Source: Burkholderiales bacterium
GTDB lineage: Bacteria; Pseudomonadota; Gammaproteobacteria; Burkholderiales; Burkholderiaceae_C
Reading direction: 5' to 3'
Length of the DNA: 64,000 nt
NCBI GenBank assembly: GCA_028868995.1
Contig: JAGWTH010000019.1
Coordinates: 1-64,000, forward strand
Shown: piece by piece, positions 7,771-45,399 of the stretch
How the letters are laid out: every line of letters begins with the position of its first letter
How positions within the stretch are numbered: the first letter of the stretch is position 1
Position numbers and translations under genes: made by a program
Notes under the pieces: model-generated
What the model was told of the DNA's origin: nothing
What the model saw: only the letters and a program-made list of their open reading frames with translations
The model's database searches: none

Positions 7771-8565
7771 ATGATTCTATCCAGTGCGTCCCCGGCGGAG
7801 GCGACGCTCTCCCTGGCCGCCGCGGTCGCCTATGCGGTGACCGCGGCCGGCGCCGCGCGGCTCAGCGGGACCGCGGCACGGCGGGCGCTCCTGGTCGCCT
7901 GGCTGCTGCACGCCGGCGCCATCGCGGCCGGCCTGCTGGGACAGCCGCGCTTCGGCTTCGCGCCCGCCCTGTCGGTCACCGGCTGGCTGGTGCTCACCGT
8001 CTATGCGGTGGAGTCGCAGATGTTCCCCCAGCTGCGCGCGCGCTGGGCGCTCGCCGGGCTCGGCTCTGTGGCGGTGCTGCTGCCCCTGGTGTTCCCCGGC
8101 ACGCCGCTGCACGAGAGCGCCTCGCCCTGGATGCCCCTGCACCTGGCCCTGGGCATCGCCTGCTACGGCCTGTTCGCCGCCGCGGCCGTCCACGCCTGGA
8201 TGCTGCAGCGGGTGGAGCGCAGCATCCGCCAGGGCGCCGAGCCCCAGGCGGGCCTGCCGCTGCTGACGCTGGAGCGCCTAACCTTCCGCTTCGCCACCGC
8301 CGGCTTCGTGCTGCTCACCGGCACGCTGGTGGCCGGCATCTTCTTCTCCGAGGCGCTGTACGGCCGGGCCTTCCGCTGGGACCACAAGAACGTGTTCTCG
8401 CTGCTGTCCTGGGTCGCCTTCGCCGCCCTGCTGCTCGGGCGGGTGCGCTTCGGCCTGCGCGGGCGGCGGGCCGTCAGCGTGATCTACATCGGCTCCGTGC
8501 TGCTGCTGCTGGCCTACGTGGGCTCGCGCTTCGTGCTGGAAGTCGTGCTCAAGCGCGCCGCATGA
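7771..8565 (+). CDS. CcsA/YpjD-like multi-pass membrane protein (cytochrome c assembly family)
   Basis: A 264-residue inner-membrane protein with about eight hydrophobic helices, of the cytochrome c assembly (CcsA/ResC/CcmC) superfamily. The conserved RWDHKNVFSLLSW near residue 210 takes the place of the tryptophan-rich heme-handling loop, and histidines flank the helices (MPLHLALGIACYG). Its position divergent from ffh is the same as ypjD of Escherichia coli, whose role is not settled. True CcsA proteins work with CcsB/ResB, which is not here, so a heme-export role should not be assumed. It overlaps the next small gene by four bases. Confidence 0.85.
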   Translation: MILSSASPAEATLSLAAAVAYAVTAAGAARLSGTAARRALLVAWLLHAGAIAAGLLGQPRFGFAPALSVTGWLVLTVYAVESQMFPQLRARWALAGLGSVAVLLPLVFPGTPLHESASPWMPLHLALGIACYGLFAAAAVHAWMLQRVERSIRQGAEPQAGLPLLTLERLTFRFATAGFVLLTGTLVAGIFFSEALYGRAFRWDHKNVFSLLSWVAFAALLLGRVRFGLRGRRAVSVIYIGSVLLLLAYVGSRFVLEVVLKRAA

Positions 8566-8792
8566 AATTCCTGGTCCTGTTCGCGGTGCTGTTCATCGCC
8601 TACCTGGTCTGGCGCAACGACCGGGTCGACCGGGGCGGCGAGCCTCCCCGCACCCCGCGCCAGCCGCCCGCGCCCCAGCCCATGGTGAGCTGCCCGGTCT
8701 GCGGCCTGCACCTGCCGCAGGCCGACGCCGTGCGCGGCGGCGACGGCCGCTTCTACTGCAGCCAGGAGCACCGGCTGCGCGCCGGCGCCTGA
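8562..8792 (+). CDS. PP0621-like small protein with a membrane anchor and zinc-ribbon-like tail
   Basis: A 76-residue protein. An N-terminal hydrophobic segment (MKFLVLFAVLFIAYLVW) is followed by a Pro/Arg linker of about 25 residues. The tail has CPVCG, then 17 residues later YCSQEH, a pattern typical of small zinc-binding (TRASH/MYM-like) knuckles. It starts by a four-base ATGA overlap with the CcsA-like gene and ends nine bases before pilS. It resembles the conserved PP0621 family of unknown function, which is commonly found in this position in Burkholderiales. Confidence 0.8.
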   Translation: MKFLVLFAVLFIAYLVWRNDRVDRGGEPPRTPRQPPAPQPMVSCPVCGLHLPQADAVRGGDGRFYCSQEHRLRAGA

Positions 8793-8801
8793 GGCCCGAG
8801 C

Positions 8802-10525
8802 GTGGCCAGCCGCAAGGGATCCGACTCTTCCTGGGGCCACTCCACGTGGACGTGGGACGTGCCCGCACCGCTGCAGGCAGCGCCGGATCCGTCGCCCTTC
8901 CAGCGCCTGTGGCTCGGCTTCATGGTGGCCCGCATCGGCACGGGCGTGACCCTGCTGGTGCTGCTGGGCGGCCTGATGGCCTCCGGGCTCGTGCCGACCG
9001 ACCCGTGGCAGCTCGCGCTGTGCGCCGCCTACCTGGCCGCCTCGGTCGCGGTGCGCCTGTTCAACCGGCCGGCCGCGCCGGGACGCAGTTTCGACCCGCA
9101 GTGGGTCTCGACCATCGGCATCGACGTGCTGGCCTTCTCCACCCTGCAGTTCGTGCAGGCGGTCAACCTCAACTACTCGCCGCTGTTCGCCCTGCCGGTG
9201 CTGACGGCCGCGGTGCTGGGGTCCAGGCTGCTGGCCCTGGGCACCGCCGCGGGGGTGACGCTGGTGCTGCTGACCGACGGCTGGGTGCAGTCGCTGGAGC
9301 TGGGCGACCACACGTCCCGGCTGCTGCAGGCGGGGCTCACGGGCGCCGGCTATTTCGTCGTCGCGCTGTTGGCCAACCAGCTGGCGGTGCGGCTGGCGCG
9401 CGAGGAGCAGGCGGCGCGCCTGGGCCGCTCGGCCGCGCGCACGCAGGCGCAGGTCAACGAGCTGGTGATCGACACGCTGACCGACGGCCTGCTGGTGGTG
9501 AGCACCGACTGGCGCATCCACGCCGCCAATCCGGCGGTCCGGGCGCTGCTCGGATGGCAGGCCAGCGAGGCCCCCGCCTCCCTGGCCCTGGTGTCGCGTC
9601 CCGGCTGGAAGCCGCTGGTGGCCGTCGCCCAGCGCACCTTCGACACCGGCGAGCCGCAGAGCGCGGAGCTGGCGCTGCGGCTGGGCCCCTCGGAGCGGCT
9701 GCACCTGCGGGTGCGCACGCGCCTCACGCCGCCGCAGGACGCCGACAGCCAGGCGCTGTGCGTGATGTTCCTGCAGGACCTGCGCGAGGCCGAGGCGCGG
9801 CTGCGCACCGAGAAGCTGGCGGCCATGGGCCGCATGTCCGCCGCCGTGGCGCACGAGATCCGCAACCCGCTGGCCGCGATCGCCCAGGCCAACGCCCTGC
9901 TGGCGGAGGAGCTGGACGACCCCGGGCACCAGCAGCTGAGCGCCCTGGTGCGCAAGAACACCCAGCGGCTGTCGCAGATCGTCGACGACATCCTCGACAT
10001 CGCCCGCCTGCAGGCGCCCAGCACCGACTGGCTGGAACTCGACCAGGCCGCGCTGCCGCTCGTGACCGAGTGGCAGCGCCAGAACGAAGCCGGCGAACGC
10101 CTGCTGCTGCGACCCGGCTCCAGCCCCGCCTGGGCCGCTTTCGACGGCGAGCACCTGCGGCGCATCCTGGTGAACCTGCTCGATAACGCGCTGCGCTACG
10201 CCTCGCGCGCGCCGGCCGCCACCGTCGTGGCCACCGACCTGCACCTGGGCCAGGCGCGGCTGCGGGTCTGGAGCGACGGGGCGCCGCTGGACCCCGGCGT
10301 TCAGCGCCACCTGTTCGAGCCCTTCTTCTCCTCCGAAAGCCGCTCCAGCGGCCTGGGCCTGTACATCTGCCGCGAGTTGTGCGAGCGCCACGGCGCGCTG
10401 ATCGCCTACGCGCGCTCGCCGGCCCCGGATGGCAGCGCCCGCGAGGGAAACGACTTCAGCGTGATATTCCGCACGCGCGCGGCGGTGGTGCCAGGCGGCG
10501 AACCCTTGGGCACAATACGCGCCTG

Positions 10526-37765: not shown

Positions 37766-38056
37766 TCAGAGGCTCTTCTCGCCCGAGGGGATCTGGCCCA
37801 GGCGCATGGCTTGCGCGGCCTGCGCGATCACGGCCTGGCGGCTGACGCTCGAGGGCTGCATCGCCAGCACGCGCGAGCCGGCCGGCTCCGGGTTGTAGTG
37901 GGCGACCGCCTGGACGGCCTCCGCGGCGACTTCGGCGCGGGTGCGCGTGCCGTGGAACTGGATGACGTTCTGGGAGCCATCGGCCTCGTCGGCGCGGGCC
38001 ACGCCGGTGGCGGCGGCGGCAACGGCGAAGGCGGCGAGCAGGATCTTGCTGTTCAT
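37766..38056 (-). CDS. DUF4148-like small secreted protein
   Basis: A 96-residue protein with a Sec signal peptide (MNSKILLAAFAVAAAATGVARA) and a short mature part. The segment TRTRAEVAAEAVQAVAHYNP fits the RAEV pattern of the DUF4148 family, small periplasmic proteins common in Burkholderiales and of unknown role. AAAGG precedes the ATG. Its promoter region carries three 11-base-spaced CTAA repeats of the same kind as those before the adjacent response-regulator gene, so it is probably a direct target of that two-component system. Confidence 0.8.
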   Translation of the reverse strand: MNSKILLAAFAVAAAATGVARADEADGSQNVIQFHGTRTRAEVAAEAVQAVAHYNPEPAGSRVLAMQPSSVSRQAVIAQAAQAMRLGQIPSGEKSL

Positions 38057-38141: not shown

Positions 38142-38184
38142 ACTGTAGGTGCCGCTGTTTAGGTCAGCCTTAGCCCTTTATTAG
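38142..38184 (-). promoter_or_regulatory. Response-regulator box and -10 upstream of the DUF4148-like gene
   Basis: On the minus strand CTAAT (38184), CTAAG (38173) and CTAAA (38162) are spaced by exactly 11 bases. Ten bases after the last comes TACAGT (38147-38142), a -10 element preceded by CACC. The arrangement CTAAN-N6-CTAAN-N6-CACCTA is shared with the box before the QseB-like gene. Confidence 0.7.
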
Positions 38185-38198
38185 CTGGGCATGAGCAA

Positions 38199-39551
38199 TC
38201 AGGCGGCCGCCTCGACGCGCGCGATCAGGCCGCTGCGGTCCTCGCGGTTGCGCAGCGTGAGCAGCAGGCCGGCGCGCTGCGCGGCCGCCTTGGCGATCGC
38301 CAGCCCCAGCCCGCTGCCGTTGGTGCCGTTGCCCGGCACGCGGAAGAAGCGGTCGAACACCCGCGGCAGCATGTCCTGCGGGATGCCGGGCCCCGTGTCC
38401 ACGACCTCCACCGCCACCCGACCCTGGTCCTGCAGCAGGCGCACGTCCACCACGCCGCCCTCAGGCGTGTAGCGCAGCGCGTTCTCGATCAGGTTGTCCA
38501 GCAGGCTGCGCAGGTCGCTGGCCGTGCACGCCAGCGGGATCGGGGTGTTGCCCTGCTGCGAGCTCACCAGGCCGAGGTCGATGTTGCGCTGGTCCGCCAG
38601 GCCGATCAGGGTGTTGACGCTCTCGCGCAGCTGGGCGCGCAGGTCCACGATCGCCGGGCCGTCGGCGCCCGCGCTTTCCTGCTTGGACAGGCGCAGCAGC
38701 TGGTCGACCAGGCGCTGGGCGCGGCGCACGCCGGCTTCCAGATGCGCGAAGCGCTGTTCGGCCGCGGGGCAGTTCATGTCGTTGCGCATGTTCTCCACCT
38801 GCAGGCCGATGGCCGCGATGGGCGTGCGCAGCTCGTGGGCCGCGTCCTGCACGAACCGGCGCTGCGTGGCGAAGGCGTCGCGCAGCCGGCGCAGCAGGCT
38901 GTTGAAGGAGGCGATCAGCGGGGTGAGCTCCTGCGGCACGTTGGCCACCGACAGCTCGGAGATGTTGTGCTCATCCTGCCGCGCGGCCTGCCGGCCGATG
39001 TCCTGCAGCGCGCGCGAGATCGCCCGCGCCACGCCCCACAGCACCAGCATCGACAGCGGCAGCATCAGCAGGAAGGGCGCGACCGCGGCGCCGGCCCGCT
39101 CCGCGGCCAGCTTGGCCCGGAAATCGAGGCTTTGCAGCACCTGCACGCCCTGCTTGTCGGCGCCGTGCGCCGGCAGGGTGTAGACGCGCCAGCGCTCGCC
39201 GTCGCCGGACACGTCGTGGAAGCCGGCGCCCGCCTGCAGCGGCAGGCGCAGCTGCGGCCAGGACGACGCCTGCAGCGCGCCGTCGGCCGCATAGGTCTGA
39301 ACCACGTAGGAGCCCTTCTTGAGCACGCGCTCCGCGTTCAGCTGGGGCGGCGCGGGCATGGCCTTGCTGGTCAGGGCCTCGGCCAGGTCCTGCATCTGGT
39401 CGTCGAGGAAGGCGCCGACCATGTGCGAGTACGACCAGTAGGAGATGGCGGCGGAACAGGCGCCCACCACCAGGAACACGGGCACCAGCCACAGCATGAG
39501 CGCCCGCCGCAGCGAGCACATGGGCCCGTTGGGGAAGACGTGCCACCTCAT
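38199..39551 (-). CDS. QseC/PmrB-like sensor histidine kinase
   Basis: A 450-residue membrane kinase. Transmembrane helices fall at about 18-40 and 155-178 and flank a periplasmic domain of about 115 residues. Next come a HAMP-like linker, the H-box DAAHELRTPIAAI with H239, an N-box NLIENALRYTPEGG, and G-boxes DTGPGIP and NGSGLGLAI. The periplasmic region (PPQLNAERVLKKGSYVVQTY) resembles the QseC-type two-helix sensor fold. It overlaps the regulator gene by four bases. The signal is unknown. Its closest family names are QseC, PmrB and TctE. Confidence 0.88.
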   Translation of the reverse strand: MRWHVFPNGPMCSLRRALMLWLVPVFLVVGACSAAISYWSYSHMVGAFLDDQMQDLAEALTSKAMPAPPQLNAERVLKKGSYVVQTYAADGALQASSWPQLRLPLQAGAGFHDVSGDGERWRVYTLPAHGADKQGVQVLQSLDFRAKLAAERAGAAVAPFLLMLPLSMLVLWGVARAISRALQDIGRQAARQDEHNISELSVANVPQELTPLIASFNSLLRRLRDAFATQRRFVQDAAHELRTPIAAIGLQVENMRNDMNCPAAEQRFAHLEAGVRRAQRLVDQLLRLSKQESAGADGPAIVDLRAQLRESVNTLIGLADQRNIDLGLVSSQQGNTPIPLACTASDLRSLLDNLIENALRYTPEGGVVDVRLLQDQGRVAVEVVDTGPGIPQDMLPRVFDRFFRVPGNGTNGSGLGLAIAKAAAQRAGLLLTLRNREDRSGLIARVEAAA

Positions 39552-40237
39552 GGCGCGGCTCCCGCGGCCACGGCCTGCGCCGGGCCGGCCACGCGCCAGC
39601 CCAGGCCGCGCACGTTGCGGATGGTGTCCGGCCCCAGCTTGCGGCGCATGCCGTGGATCAGGACGTCCACCGCGTTGCTGCTCACCTCCTCGCCCCAGCC
39701 GTAGATGCGGTTTTCCAGCTGCTCGCGCGAGAGGATCGCGCCCGGCCGCTCCAGCAGCGCGTGCAGCAGCGCGAACTCGCGCGCCGACAGCTGCGAGCGC
39801 TCGCCCTGCACCAGCACCTCGCGGGTGGTCAGGTCGAGCTGCACCGCGGTGTTGCCGATGACCGAATGGGCGCTGCCGTCGCGCCGGCGGATCACCGCGC
39901 GCATGCGCGCCAGCAGCTCGCGCAGCTCGTACGGCTTGAGCAGGTAGTCGTCGGCGCCCAGGTCCAGGCCCTCCACGCGGTCGTCGACGCCGTCGCGCGC
40001 CGTCAGCACCAGCACGGGCGTGGTGTCGCCGCGGCCGCGCGCGTGGCGCAGCACCTCCACGCCATCGCGTTTGGGCAGCCCCAGGTCCAGCAGCACGCAG
40101 GCGTAGTCGCCGTCGGCCCAGGCGCTCTGGGCGAGCAGGCCGTCCTTGACCCAGTCGACCGACCAGCCCTGGGCGGCGAGGCCTTCCTTCAGGCTGTGCC
40201 CGATCATCTCGTCGTCTTCGACCAGCAGGACGCGCAT
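39548..40237 (-). CDS. QseB/PmrA-like response regulator (OmpR family)
   Basis: A 229-residue regulator. The receiver domain has VEDDEMIG and phospho-acceptor D51 (LLDLGLPKRDG), then a winged-helix DNA-binding domain with LSAREFALLHALLERPG and SSNAVDVLIHGMRRKLG. ATG 40237 is chosen because GGAGAG lies nine bases upstream; an in-frame ATG five codons earlier lacks one. The gene is first in a two-gene operon with its kinase and is divergent from the Csu-type pilus operon. A pair of CTAAC-N6-CTAAC repeats in its promoter suggests autoregulation. Confidence 0.9.
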   Translation of the reverse strand: MRVLLVEDDEMIGHSLKEGLAAQGWSVDWVKDGLLAQSAWADGDYACVLLDLGLPKRDGVEVLRHARGRGDTTPVLVLTARDGVDDRVEGLDLGADDYLLKPYELRELLARMRAVIRRRDGSAHSVIGNTAVQLDLTTREVLVQGERSQLSAREFALLHALLERPGAILSREQLENRIYGWGEEVSSNAVDVLIHGMRRKLGPDTIRNVRGLGWRVAGPAQAVAAGAAP

Positions 40238-40300
40238 CCCGGTTCTCTCCATGCGGGGTAGGGGGCTGCAGTGCCTCCACAGGCACTGGCTTACCCGTGA

Positions 40301-40332
40301 AGGATAGGTGGGCTTTGTTAGAGCTGCGTTAG
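40301..40332 (-). promoter_or_regulatory. Autoregulatory box and -10 upstream of the QseB-like gene
   Basis: On the minus strand CTAAC (40332-40328), then six bases, CTAAC (40321-40317), then six bases, CACCTATCCT, with -10 TATCCT at 40306-40301 ten bases after the second repeat. It has the same geometry and the same CACCTA junction as the promoter of the DUF4148-like gene. Confidence 0.7.
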
Positions 40333-40542: not shown

Positions 40543-40571
40543 TTGAGAAGGAGTCGGACAGCACCTACAGT
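40543..40571 (+). promoter_or_regulatory. Putative promoter of the Csu-type pilus operon
   Basis: TTGAGA (40543-40548) and TACAGT (40566-40571) are 17 bases apart. Transcription would start near 40578, leaving a leader of about 70 bases that contains the CTAG repeat. Confidence 0.55.
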
Positions 40572-40648: not shown

Positions 40649-41125
40649 ATGAAATCTCTGAAATTTGCCCGTATCGCTGCTGTCGCGCTGGCCGCGGCGG
40701 CTTCCTCGGCGGCATTCGCCGCCGACTCCCAGAACCTGGCCGTGTCGGCCACGGTCGCCGGCACCTGCAAGCTGACCGCCGTCCCGGCCATGGGCTTCAC
40801 CCTGGATCCCAGCGTGGGCGGCACCGGCACCGCCAGCTCCGCGGTGCAATACAAGTGCACCAAGGGCCTGTCGGCGGGCGCCTTCACCGTCGGCGCCGTT
40901 TCCAACGGCACCACCGGCTACAGCGGCACCCTGACCAACGCCGGCACCGACACGATCGCCTACTCGATCAACTGGACCAACCCGTCGGCCTTCACCGGCA
41001 CCGGCTTCGGCTCGGGCAGCACGGCCAACACCGTGACGCTGAACGGCACGATCGCCGCCGCCGCCTACCAGAACGTGGCCGCCGGCACCTACAACGGCAC
41101 GGTCGCCGTCACGATCGCCCCGTAA
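40649..41125 (+). CDS. Spore coat U-domain major pilin subunit (CsuA/B-like)
   Basis: A 158-residue secreted protein. A Sec signal peptide (MKSLKFARIAAVALAAAASSAAFA) is followed by an Ig-like SCPU domain with DSQNLAVSATVAGTCKLT, a disulfide cysteine pair (TCKLT, YKCTKG), and the family end YNGTVAVTIAP. In Csu (archaic sigma-class) chaperone-usher pili this is the main rod subunit, completed by donor-strand exchange. GAGGAG precedes the ATG. It is first of five genes in the operon and by position the most expressed. Confidence 0.9.
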   Translation: MKSLKFARIAAVALAAAASSAAFAADSQNLAVSATVAGTCKLTAVPAMGFTLDPSVGGTGTASSAVQYKCTKGLSAGAFTVGAVSNGTTGYSGTLTNAGTDTIAYSINWTNPSAFTGTGFGSGSTANTVTLNGTIAAAAYQNVAAGTYNGTVAVTIAP

Positions 41126-41188
41126 GCCACCAGGCTTGCTGCCAACGCGCCGTCCCGCGGGACGGCGCCTCCTTCTCCCACCTCACCG

Positions 41189-41689
41189 ATGCTGCACCGA
41201 ATGGGCCACGGCCTGGGCCGCCGCATGGGCGCGATTGCTGCCGCCCTGTTGCTGGCTGCCGGTGTCCCCGCCAGGGCGGACACCAGCCAGCTCGCGGTCT
41301 CCGCCGTCGTCCTGTCCAACAGCATCTGCCGCTTCCTCACGGGCCCGGCGACGCTGAACTTCGGCACCATCGACCCTTCCTCCGGCACCGCGGCCACCGC
41401 ATCCACGACGATGCAATTCTGGTGCTGGGGTTTCGTGGGCACCACCACCTACTCGGTGCAGGCCGGCAACGGGCTCTACTCCCCGGGCGCGGGACTGCGG
41501 CGCGTTCGCCACACCACGTCGACCAGCGACTTCATGGCCTACACGCTGAACCTCTCGCCCGCTTCCGCCACGGTCGGACGGTTCGCGATCCAGACCGTCA
41601 CGGTGAGCGGTTCCATCGCACCTACGGAATTCCAGAATGCCAGGGTGGGAGCCTATTCGGATACAGTCGTGATCAGCCTCGACCCCTGA
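41189..41689 (+). CDS. Second spore coat U-domain pilin subunit
   Basis: A 166-residue SCPU-domain protein with an N-terminal signal segment (GAIAAALLLAAGVPARA). The mature start is DTSQLAVSAVVLSNSICRF, the cysteine pair is ICRF and FWCWG, and the end is YSDTVVISLDP. In Csu operons CsuA and CsuB are adaptor or minor subunits; only one such gene is present here between the major pilin and the chaperone. An in-frame ATG at 41189 is used; MGH and MGA a few codons later are alternatives. Confidence 0.87.
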   Translation: MLHRMGHGLGRRMGAIAAALLLAAGVPARADTSQLAVSAVVLSNSICRFLTGPATLNFGTIDPSSGTAATASTTMQFWCWGFVGTTTYSVQAGNGLYSPGAGLRRVRHTTSTSDFMAYTLNLSPASATVGRFAIQTVTVSGSIAPTEFQNARVGAYSDTVVISLDP

Positions 41690-41719
41690 GACCTCGCCGC
41701 AGCGAGGGCTGATCCCGTC

Positions 41720-42466
41720 ATGAACCTGCCGTCCCTTGCCCGCATCGCCGGTCTGTGCCTCGTCGCAACCGCCGTTGCCGGCGCCGTGCCGCCTGCGCTG
41801 GGCGGCGAGTTCTCCGTGACTCCCATCAGCGTGGATCTGAAGCCCGGGGCCATGAGCGAGACCATCACGGTCACCAACCACGCCAAGGACAAGCTGCGGG
41901 TGAACATCCGCCTGATGCAGTGGACCCAGGACGCCCAGGGCAAGGACGTGTACACGGACAGCAACGACCTGGTCTACTTCCCGCGCCAGATGGACGTGGA
42001 GGGGGAAGCCAAGCGCCTGGTGCGCGTGGGCCTCAAGACCCCCGCCGGCACGATGGAACGCACCTATCGCCTGTTCATCGAGGAGCAACCCGAGGCCACC
42101 CCGGACCCCGCCCGTTCCCAGATCGCGTTCTATTTCCGCTTCGGCGTGCCCATCTTCGTCGCCCCGGCGGTGCCCAAGCCGCAGCCGGACGTGCCCGTCC
42201 CGACGCTCCAGGGCGGCAAGCTGTCGATCCCCGTCAAGAACACCGGCAACCAGCATTTCCGGCTGGTGAAGATCGCGATCAGCGACGCCGCCGGCTACCT
42301 GGAGGAGATCTCGGGCTGGTATTCGCTGGCCGGCACCGAACGCACCTACACGGCGACCCTCCCCCCCGACGTGTGCCGCAAGGCGGGCACGCTCGACGTA
42401 TCGCTCGTGGGCGAGGGTTTCCGACTGGACCGCAAAGTGAATGTGGATCCTGCGAGCTGCTCGTGA
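41720..42466 (+). CDS. Periplasmic pilus chaperone (CsuC-like)
   Basis: A 248-residue PapD-like chaperone with a signal peptide (LARIAGLCLVATAVAGAVPPALGG). The two Ig-like domains carry the archaic-family start FSVTPISVDLKPGAMSETITV, the subunit-binding strand YFPRQMDVEGEAKRLVRVGL with its conserved Arg, and YRLFIEEQP. It holds pilin subunits in the periplasm and hands them to the usher. It overlaps the usher start by 26 bases. Confidence 0.92.
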   Translation: MNLPSLARIAGLCLVATAVAGAVPPALGGEFSVTPISVDLKPGAMSETITVTNHAKDKLRVNIRLMQWTQDAQGKDVYTDSNDLVYFPRQMDVEGEAKRLVRVGLKTPAGTMERTYRLFIEEQPEATPDPARSQIAFYFRFGVPIFVAPAVPKPQPDVPVPTLQGGKLSIPVKNTGNQHFRLVKIAISDAAGYLEEISGWYSLAGTERTYTATLPPDVCRKAGTLDVSLVGEGFRLDRKVNVDPASCS

Positions 42467-44924
42467 TCCCGGCCCCCTCCGCGGCGTCCTGACGCCGCCT
42501 CCCCGCCGTTCCCGCCGCAGCGGGAACGGCCCCCGCGCCTTCTCCCGCGCCCTGCTGGCCACCTGCTGCCTGCTGGCGCTGCGCCTGCCCTTGCCGGCGC
42601 AGGCGCAGCCCGCGGCACCCGCCGGCAACGCCGCCGCGCCGGCGCCGGCGCAAGCCGACGAACTGATCCTCACCGTGACGGTCAACGGCGTGGCGCGCGG
42701 GGAGTACACGCTGCTGCGCCAACCCGGGGGCGACTTCTGGGTGCGCGGCGAGGACCTGCCCCGCCTGAAGCTGGAGCCGCTGGCGCCGGCTCGCCGCACG
42801 ATCGGCAAGGACACCTACTACTCCATGCAGGCGCTGGGCGCGAGCGGGGTGCAGTACAACGAGGCGGAACTCGCACTGGCCGTGCAGTTCCCGACCGCCC
42901 GGCTCGAAGGCACCGTCATCGACCTGGCGGCGCCGCCGACCCCGGCCGTCCCGACCGAGCCGCGCACGAGCCTGATCCTCAGCTACCGGCTGGCCGCCAC
43001 CAACCCCGGCCAGGGCCAATCCACGCAGATCGGGCTGGACACCGACGCCAACCTGCGCCTCGGCCCCCTGCTGCTGCGGCAGACCGCGCGGGTGGCCACC
43101 GGGACCCAGTTCAACGGCTTCACCCGCGGGACCAGCCAGCTGATCTGGGACAACCGGGCGGACGCCCAGCGCTTCACGGCGGGTGACGTGGTGTCGAACG
43201 CGGGCCAGTACGGCGTGGCGATGACGGGTGCCGGACTGATGGTCACCAAGCTGTACGACATGCGGCCCGACCTGATCAAGCAGCCCACCGCGACCCTGCG
43301 CGCGGCGACGCCCGTGCCGGCCCAGGTCGAGGTGTCGGTGGACGGAAACACCATCTACCGGGGCAGCGTGGGGCCGGGCCCGATCACGCTGGACAACCTG
43401 CTGCTGTACGGCGGCACCCGCAACGTGCAGGTGACCGTGACGGACGCCTCCGGCCACCGCGAGGTGATCACCCAGCCCATCCTGTTCACCGACTACGTGC
43501 TGGCCCAGGGCTTCCACGAATACAACTACTTCGTGGGCCGGCGCTCGGAGCTCGGGCTGGACAACGCCTGGCACTACAAGGAGATGGCCTGGCAGGGCTA
43601 CCACCGCTACGGCGTGACGGACTCGCTCACGGTGGGTGCGGGCGGCGAGGGCAATCCGGACTTCACCACCCTGGGCGGCGGCATCACCCTGCGCAGCGAC
43701 CGCCTGGGGCTCGTCTCGCTGGACCTGATCGCCAACCACGACCGGGTGGCCCGCACCACGGCCGGCGGCTGGGCCACGCGCTACAGCTACATCACCCCCC
43801 ACTGGTCGATGCAGCTGGGACGGCGCCAGTTCGAGCCGGGCTTCCGCACCTTCCTCACTTCGCCGACCAACCCCTTCCTGCGCAGCGAGACCCGGGCCGG
43901 CGCCTCCGTGCAGCTGTGGCAGTCCACGCTCTCGGCCGACTGGGTGCGCAGCGAGGACGCGCTGGGCCGCACCGACACGGGCATCCTGCGGCTCGCCGCC
44001 AACGTCACCCGGCACGCGACGCTCAGCGGCGAACTGCAGAACACGCGCAATCCCGACGGCAGCCGGGACTGGTCGGCCTACGTGTTCCTGCGCTACGACC
44101 TGGACCGCGACCGCTGGATGGGCGCCACCGTGCGCTCCAGCCCCGGCGACCGGGGGCTCGACCTGGAGACCGGCAAGAACCTCGTGCAGGGCGAGGGTGT
44201 GGGCTACCGCATCGGCACCAGCAATGACCAGCGCAGCGCCGGCGGCGACAGTGGCTACGCCTTCGCCACGGCCAAATGGAACCTGCGGCCCCTGTCGCTG
44301 GAGTTCCTGGGCACCTCCGCCACGCAGGGCGGCAACGCGAGCTACACGGAAGTCGCGGCCAGCGGCGCCGTGGTGGCGGTCGACGGCTTCTGGGGCCTGA
44401 CCCGGCAGGTGAACGACAGCTTCGCCCTGGCGCGGCTCGGCGTCCCGCAGCCCGGCGTGCAGGTGCTCCTGAACAACCAGGTCGAAGGCGTCACCGACGA
44501 CCGCGGCCTGCTGTTCATCCCCGACGTCGGCGCCTTCGGCAACCAGGACATCTCGATCAACGACCGGCAGGTCGGCATGCAGTACGAGCTGGCCGCGCGC
44601 CGCCAGACCATCTCGCCGGCCTACCGCAGCGGCAACGTGGTGGACTTCGGAGGCAAGAAGCTGAGCGCGGTGGCGGGCATGGCCTGGGAGCTCGCCGACG
44701 GACGGCGTACACCCATCGCCTCGCGGGCTTGGACCCTCAGCGGACCCGCCGGTACCCTGAAGGTGGAAACCAGCAACACGGGCGACTTCTACCTGGAGAA
44801 CGCGCAGCCCGGCACCTACACCGGATCGCTGCAGATCGGACGGCGGGTTTATGCTTGCCGCGTGACCGTCCCGGAGTTCCCGGAACCGGTGCTGGAACTG
44901 AAGGAAGGGATCGTCTGTGAATAG
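42441..44924 (+). CDS. Outer-membrane usher (CsuD-like, FimD/PapC family)
   Basis: An 827-residue usher. After an N-terminal extension of about 35 residues comes a signal-like segment (RALLATCCLLALRLPLPAQA). The N-terminal chaperone-binding domain (LILTVTVNGVARGEYTLLRQ) is followed by the 24-stranded barrel with the plug (QVEVSVDGNTIYRGSVGPG, NLLLYGGTRNVQVTV) and two C-terminal domains ending in PEFPEPVLELKEGIVCE. The length fits archaic ushers. The start is unclear because the region before the signal peptide has only the ATG at 42441, inside the chaperone gene. It secretes and assembles the pilus. Confidence 0.92.
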   Translation: MWILRAARDPGPLRGVLTPPPRRSRRSGNGPRAFSRALLATCCLLALRLPLPAQAQPAAPAGNAAAPAPAQADELILTVTVNGVARGEYTLLRQPGGDFWVRGEDLPRLKLEPLAPARRTIGKDTYYSMQALGASGVQYNEAELALAVQFPTARLEGTVIDLAAPPTPAVPTEPRTSLILSYRLAATNPGQGQSTQIGLDTDANLRLGPLLLRQTARVATGTQFNGFTRGTSQLIWDNRADAQRFTAGDVVSNAGQYGVAMTGAGLMVTKLYDMRPDLIKQPTATLRAATPVPAQVEVSVDGNTIYRGSVGPGPITLDNLLLYGGTRNVQVTVTDASGHREVITQPILFTDYVLAQGFHEYNYFVGRRSELGLDNAWHYKEMAWQGYHRYGVTDSLTVGAGGEGNPDFTTLGGGITLRSDRLGLVSLDLIANHDRVARTTAGGWATRYSYITPHWSMQLGRRQFEPGFRTFLTSPTNPFLRSETRAGASVQLWQSTLSADWVRSEDALGRTDTGILRLAANVTRHATLSGELQNTRNPDGSRDWSAYVFLRYDLDRDRWMGATVRSSPGDRGLDLETGKNLVQGEGVGYRIGTSNDQRSAGGDSGYAFATAKWNLRPLSLEFLGTSATQGGNASYTEVAASGAVVAVDGFWGLTRQVNDSFALARLGVPQPGVQVLLNNQVEGVTDDRGLLFIPDVGAFGNQDISINDRQVGMQYELAARRQTISPAYRSGNVVDFGGKKLSAVAGMAWELADGRRTPIASRAWTLSGPAGTLKVETSNTGDFYLENAQPGTYTGSLQIGRRVYACRVTVPEFPEPVLELKEGIVCE

Positions 44925-45399
44925 GCGCCTGCTCACCTGGTTGGTGGCGCTGCTGGCCGCCGGCCCGGCCCTCGCGGCCACCACCTGCCGGATCAGCTCG
45001 AACGGCGGCATGGCCTTCGGCGGCTACGACGTGCTGTCCTCGGCGCCCGACGACTCGATCGCCACCGTCGCGGCCCTGTGCACGCGCAATGGCGGCGCCC
45101 GGAACGTGACCATCACCCTCCAGCTGAACCAGGGCTCCAACGGCACCTCCGTGAGCGCGCGGCGCATGCGGAACCTCGGCCCCGCCGGCGGCTTCCTGAA
45201 CTACAACCTGTTCCGCGACTCCGCGCGCAGCGCCATCTGGGGCTTCAGCACCGGGGTGGACACGATGTCGCTGAGCCTCACCATCCCCAACCGCGGCAGC
45301 AGCACCGCCACCTTCACCATCTACGGCCGCATCCCCGCGCTGCAGGACGTGGCCGTGGGCAGCTACACCGACTCGGTCACCGTCACCGTCACGCCCTGA
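44917..45399 (+). CDS. Short spore coat U-domain protein, likely pilus tip subunit
   Basis: A 160-residue protein with a signal peptide (MNRRLLTWLVALLAAGPALA) and one SCPU domain (TTCRISSNGGMAFGGYDV, VAALCTRNGGARNVTI, ending YTDSVTVTVTP). It takes the place of CsuE, the tip adhesin, but CsuE proteins have two domains and about 330 residues, so here the tip would lack the separate adhesin domain. GTG start, overlapping the usher by eight bases, with AAGGAAGG upstream. Confidence 0.85.
   Translation: MNRRLLTWLVALLAAGPALAATTCRISSNGGMAFGGYDVLSSAPDDSIATVAALCTRNGGARNVTITLQLNQGSNGTSVSARRMRNLGPAGGFLNYNLFRDSARSAIWGFSTGVDTMSLSLTIPNRGSSTATFTIYGRIPALQDVAVGSYTDSVTVTVTP

Follow-up and report, generated by a model that had tools for sequence, protein, structure and literature searches.

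The regulator BqsR (CarR) of Pseudomonas aeruginosa recognises the operator TTAAG(N)6TTAAG, and its operators may overlap to form runs of as many as five pentamers (PMC4682146). In one dissected BqsR promoter the last two pentamers were critical and the upstream ones added to the output, while the most downstream pentamer overlapped the -35 position (PMC4682146). In Klebsiella, PmrA binds CTTAAT and CCTAAG as half-sites in head-to-tail order (PMC3973317). The DUF4148 family belongs overwhelmingly to the Burkholderiales and its biochemical activity is not known; one member is reported to be critical for virulence (PMC7549894), the domain of another to be putatively essential, and a DUF4148 operon of Achromobacter to be among those most induced by arsenite or antimonite. 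The open-access literature on DUF4148, as far as it was available to us, describes neither the operator of the regulator studied here nor direct two-component control of DUF4148 genes.

Several described systems resemble the locus in gene content. In Burkholderia pseudomallei a DUF4148 gene also lies directly downstream of a two-component system, in irlR2-irlS2-BPSS1996 and in irlRS-BPSS1038, a closeness that the authors say may be coincidental (PMC7549894). These differ from our locus in that irlR2-irlS2 resembles IrlRS, which is tied to Cd and Zn resistance, and in that the available part of that paper describes no operator or target link (PMC7549894); a later paper on the Burkholderia irl system, in its available part, leaves direct promoter binding open. 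AgrRS-prsQ2 of Cupriavidus metallidurans shares with the proposed system an autoregulated OmpR-family regulator, and the gene for a small predicted periplasmic protein is the top upregulated gene of the resistant mutant, whereas the AgrR box is described as an inverted repeat, ATTACA-N4, with some direct half-sites (PMC7380067). PrsQ2 is called CopQ-like, and a link to DUF4148 was not found in the available part of the paper (PMC7380067). DbfQRS of Vibrio cholerae combines a two-component operon with an adjoining gene for a small periplasmic protein and shows signs of positive autoregulation (PMC12714742). The BiofilmReg operon of Burkholderia was considered and set aside as a different system with DUF4136, reportedly absent from Comamonadaceae (PMC5192318).

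The window, by which we mean the whole 64,000-nucleotide stretch of DNA that was analysed, comes from a 3.76 Mb genome whose source is described as a soil bacterium. The features concerned are as follows.

40649-45399, plus strand: SCPU (spore coat U) chaperone-usher fimbrial operon, five genes (Pfam)
40301..40332, minus strand: regulator promoter, two pentamers with an 11-base period, then -10-like TATCCT (40306-40301)
39548..40252, minus strand: response regulator of the OmpR/PhoB family, PmrA/QseB subfamily, 234 aa (Pfam Response_reg and Trans_reg_C)
38199..39551, minus strand: QseC-like sensor histidine kinase (Pfam HisKA and HATPase_c)
38142..38195, minus strand: DUF4148 promoter, four pentamers with an 11-base period, then -10-like TACAGT (38147-38142)
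37766..38056, minus strand: small DUF4148-family protein, 96 aa (PF13663)

The regulator has the receiver and the winged-helix Trans_reg_C domain of the OmpR/PhoB family (PF00072, 82.9 bits; PF00486, 68.8 bits), and the start common to its relatives is MRVLLVED, from 40237. Its nearest NCBIfam models are PmrA and QseB, but it stays below the equivalog cut-offs of both (225.5 bits vs 330 for PmrA/BasR and 220 bits vs 345 for QseB), and its best PDB matches are the BasR chains 8jo2 and 4s04. The label "QseB-like" given in the earlier note is loose, because neither cut-off is reached. The ATG of the kinase gene overlaps the stop codon of the regulator gene, and the kinase scores 199.2 bits against the QseC equivalog cut-off of 475. 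The DUF4148 protein, which we aligned with 29 relatives, passes the PF13663 gathering cut-off (41.2 bits vs 27); its N-terminus looks like a signal peptide when judged by eye, and its AlphaFold model is of low confidence (mean pLDDT 67.2, pTM 0.28). The closest named loci, a listing of 80 from which records of the own genome may have been omitted, are mostly from Ramlibacter. Among these 80, all five SCPU fimbrial proteins were matched beside the regulator in one locus only (L135).

On the minus strand, the regulator gene is preceded by CTAAC (40332-40328), N6, CTAAC (40321-40317), N6 and CACCTATCCT (40310-40301), and the DUF4148 gene by CTAAT (38184-38180), N6, CTAAG (38173-38169), N6, CTAAA (38162-38158), N6 and CACCTACAGT (38151-38142). 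The letters bear out the exact 11-base period of the CTAAN repeats and the ten bases from the last repeat to the -10 claimed earlier for both promoters, with a TA-hexamer at that distance in each. All three pentamers claimed before the DUF4148 gene are present; a fourth, CTCAT (38195-38191), in phase with them and three bases past the kinase stop codon, had been missed. This array lies between the kinase stop and the DUF4148 start and scores 22/22 on a four-pentamer pattern. The TAnnnT hexamers are, judging by their letters and position, putative -10 elements.

The arrangement is that of BqsR in having pentamers separated by 6 bp, in runs, with the last one at the -35 position; it differs in its letters (TTAAG there; CTAAG, CTAAA, CTAAC, CTAAT and CTCAT here), in its few exact sites against the 432 reported for BqsR with up to two mismatches, and in its local target, DUF4148 (PMC4682146). 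Similarly, the PmrA (BasR) box of Klebsiella and Salmonella consists of head-to-tail six-base half-sites five bases apart, which gives the same period of 11, and the natural Klebsiella half-site CCTAAG contains CTAAG, whereas the usual half-site is CTTAA(G/T) and the local regulator lies below the PmrA cut-off, as given above (PMC3973317). The window pentamers match neither TTAAG nor CTTAA(G/T). Among the base-contacting residues described for PmrA (PMC3973317), Asn188 and His195 are kept in the local regulator, and Lys153, Thr187 and His193 are replaced by Arg, Ser and Leu, respectively. Set against these sources, as far as they were available, the operator architecture and autoregulation are already known for the PmrA/QseB subfamily, and neither the regulon nor the DUF4148 link was found described in them.

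We scored 65 regulator upstream regions, namely that of the window and those of 64 of the 80 named loci (13 of them from Pantoea), the other 16 being left out because the script did not locate the regulator start. The pattern CTAA-N7-CTAA-N11-TAnnnT reached 10 or 11 of 11 in 58 of the 65, window included, and less than 10 in seven. When the spacing of the pentamers was changed to 8, 9, 10, 12, 13, 14 or 15, the corresponding numbers fell to 0, 1, 0, 0, 0, 2 and 2 of 65, and six alternative gaps to the -10 gave 0-1 of 65. Of the 64 non-redundant upstreams, 30 contain an exact pentamer pair, and in these the T, the A and the T of the -10 are present in 29, 30 and 30 cases. Some loci carry a small hydrophobic ORF between array and regulator, which would place the operon as a whole under the control of the array. 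The CACCTA string, on which the original description of the shared -10 region had relied, is present in both window promoters, yet the full string recurs in only 1 of 60 other genomes; it was therefore ruled out as a conserved signal, and CACC was dropped while TAnnnT was kept, only the pentamers and TAnnnT being conserved.

Before DUF4148 genes, the four-pentamer pattern scored 21-22 of 22 at the 11-base spacing in 27 of 30 upstream regions (the set of 30 loci retrieved from 36 genomes that had a match), as compared with a top score of 17 at the control spacings 9, 10, 12 and 13. The three low-scoring upstreams (L047, L055, L061) belong to copies away from the system, and the same genomes hold a copy beside it. 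Thus, the geometry typical of BqsR and PmrA, i.e., head-to-tail pentamers with 6-bp spacers and the last one at the -35 position, was found in 58/65 regulator and 27/30 DUF4148 upstreams, and the check for conservation in orthologous promoters proposed in the earlier note came out in its favour once CACC was left aside, although counts across relatives are not independent because the sequences share ancestry. After the kinase gene, a four-pentamer array (CTAA or CTCA, a variant that recurs among relatives) scored 18-19 of 19 in 57 of 65 non-Pantoea named loci, a count that leaves out the 13 Pantoea loci and two loci (L139, L142) that end before this region; the control spacings 10 and 12 gave a top score of 14.

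Scanning of the own genome for CTAA-N7-CTAA-N7-CACCTA returned two matches, both at the window promoters, and the reversed-pattern control returned none. In contrast, the looser pair CTAA-N7-CTAA, scanned as exact pairs, matched 6 times vs 12 for the reversed control, which is no numerical enrichment; the expectation of a non-chance frequency genome-wide therefore holds for the full string and fails for the loose pair. The six matches correspond to four loci. Two of these are the window promoters, one lies before a further DUF4148 gene, and one is an inverted repeat that precedes an rpoH-like gene. By this assignment, all exact direct pairs found in the own genome precede the regulator or a DUF4148 gene. 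The second DUF4148 gene, unlinked to the first (contig C50; PF13663, 43.1 bits), is preceded by CTCAC, CTAAG, CTAAG and CTAAA and then TAGAGT, and the pentamer pair was not found at the third PF13663 match of the own genome (24.8 bits, below the cut-off), so that two of the three matches carry arrays. CopQ/PrsQ proteins were tried as DUF4148 relatives and rejected, as the second DUF4148 protein, used as a tblastn query on plasmids, gave no match.

Two other candidate targets in the own genome were rejected. The site at C11:29276 is the inverted repeat TTAGCACTC-N9-GAGTGCTAA, located directly before an ORF called rpoH-like from its first 130 residues; we take it to be a CIRCE element and excluded it from the count. 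The string CACCTACAGT, identical to the -10 region of the DUF4148 promoter, also occurs at 40562-40571 on the plus strand, before the SCPU fimbrial operon, and by eye no in-phase pentamer accompanies it there. A search for CACCTACAGT with one mismatch gave at least two matches in 31 of 100 shuffles; the two real matches are exact, and the shuffle figure covers one-mismatch matches.

The lack of enrichment of the loose pair would fit repeats without function, produced by chance and shared ancestry, as would a scan of 399 genomes of the family, 46 of which had triple CTAA arrays, with reversed-pattern matches at least as common. Because of this control, the family scan is not evidence beyond the genus, and the named loci were used instead. 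Within 59 genomes of the genus (own genome included), however, the triple CTAA was found in 39, in 95 rows vs 5 for the reversed control. Moreover, in Ramlibacter, Variovorax, Polaromonas and Pantoea the letters of the spacers differ whereas the spacing is exact, the controls showing that pentamers and spacing are kept where spacers have diverged, and arrays stand also at unlinked DUF4148 genes. We therefore regard an origin by chance and ancestry as extremely improbable.

The 95 rows represent 60 distinct sites, and 53 of these have a DUF4148 ORF start within 300 nt, as assigned with a profile built from four proteins, all from loci then scored; two of the 53 are weak profile matches (L090, E 2.9e-4; L226, E 2.7e-5). 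The predicted clustering before DUF4148 genes was thus found at the level of the genus. One site is a regulator-operon promoter (L226), one (L091) precedes an ORF that is rpoH-like by eye, and one (L092) has no gene class attached. Four further sites (L084, L222, L223, L224) adjoin an ORF that, judged by eye, is hemerythrin-like, and they are oriented away from it; they may reflect another role of the array or a site of a different regulator. In the same 59 genomes PF13663 gave 243 matches in total at E 0.001; compared with the 53 arrays, this makes DUF4148 genes with an array the minority.

The distribution of the arrays follows that of the regulator. Exact triple arrays were present in 36 of 45 genomes with a regulator orthologue and in 3 of 14 without one (Fisher p 1.2e-4, kinship ignored), and in genomes at least 90% complete the figures were 32 of 39 and 0 of 8 (Fisher p 2e-5, kinship ignored); the orthologue search was limited to 48 scored candidates for each genome. 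This co-occurrence is a correlation among relatives. Nine genomes had the regulator and no exact triple array, and eight of them contained a relaxed array (at least 12/15, a threshold used without a control). In G065, which has DUF4148 relatives and no regulator, an array was not found in the two stretches looked at. Among the three exceptions of the opposite kind, G064 carries a regulator fragment at a contig end, and G017 (69% complete) and G061 (80%) are drafts in which the regulator was not detected. These two drafts could speak for arrays bound mainly by another OmpR-family regulator of the same genome, the local regulator being merely one target, and the own genome does hold three more regulator matches of 50-60% identity (C79:1101, C10:25162, C79:4924). 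Yet the exact pentamer pair is absent at all three, array presence tracks the local orthologue, and the Pantoea loci keep array and regulator together, which makes binding mainly by another regulator quite improbable in our judgement.

The regulators of the 13 Pantoea loci are 73-75% identical to that of the window. Their upstream regions contain a pair made of an ATAAT- or TTAAT-type pentamer and CTAA, scoring 10 of 11 in 13/13 loci, and a CTAAT array lies on the side that points away from the regulator in 13/13. In the four loci inspected (among L164-L182), this array stands before an ORF of 122 aa that diverges from the regulator gene; the one scanned with Pfam (L164) is of the AraC type, and we take the ORF to be MarA-like. 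An array before an AraC-type ORF suggests a regulatory cascade in Pantoea.

The preferred reading, which we hold to be very probably correct, is that of an autoregulated two-component system whose regulator would bind the head-to-tail pentamers as a class II activator of its own operon and of DUF4148 genes, because the ladder is common to both and is kept in many relatives. The regulator would bind CTAAG-like pentamers repeated every 11 bases, on about one face of the helix, and the last pentamer would occupy the -35 place, ten bases ahead of the -10; this placement, together with the fit of the local arrays to the operator logic of BqsR and PmrA, makes class II activation likely. Its own operon would be switched on through two pentamers, perhaps more weakly, and at least one small secreted DUF4148 protein through four, perhaps more strongly, an order of promoter strength that we infer by analogy with BqsR. 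Autoregulation with a small secreted protein as a target, as originally suggested, is thus supported as the simplest reading by the conserved motif and its clustering before DUF4148 genes.

An array that covers the -35 position could also be read as the site of a repressor, the local regulator blocking RNA polymerase there until its phosphorylation state changes. AgrR, an OmpR-family regulator from the same order, is reportedly active when unphosphorylated, so that the switch can run either way, but it is described as a Type II activator (PMC7380067), and BqsR activates from pentamers over the -35 (PMC4682146). The promoters themselves also speak against repression. A -10 element without a -35 box is, as a general principle, suited to an activator. 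We consider repression unlikely.

Of the 44 loci L103-L146, 29 contain a relative of the window DUF4148 protein. Ten other proteins in the following position were compared with Pfam: three exceed the PF13663 cut-off, two resemble the family at scores below that cut-off, and for the remaining five (Variovorax L146, L147, L150 and L151; Pseudorhodoferax L132) Pfam gives no credible match. In L132 the place of DUF4148 after the array is taken by a 214-aa protein (8180-8821) without a Pfam match. The usual occupant is DUF4148 in Ramlibacter, Caenimonas and Polaromonas; in the four Variovorax loci tested, the protein is small and Pfam again gives no credible match. By analogy with DbfQ, the array might mark a portable slot for a small exported protein after the kinase, which, once induced, would bind the sensor domain of the kinase and close a feedback loop. 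We offer this tentatively and think it rather doubtful; DbfQ, a PepSY protein, does bind the kinase of its system (PMC12714742), whereas an interaction between the local DUF4148 protein and the kinase is hypothetical.

Our results speak against a coincidental neighbourhood of two-component system and DUF4148 gene in the Ramlibacter-Variovorax group. The promoter signature, which can be scanned for across other Comamonadaceae genomes, connects a group of DUF4148 genes with a single type of two-component system and thereby makes their function directly testable. If the slot and feedback reading were true, it would give DUF4148 its first molecular function.
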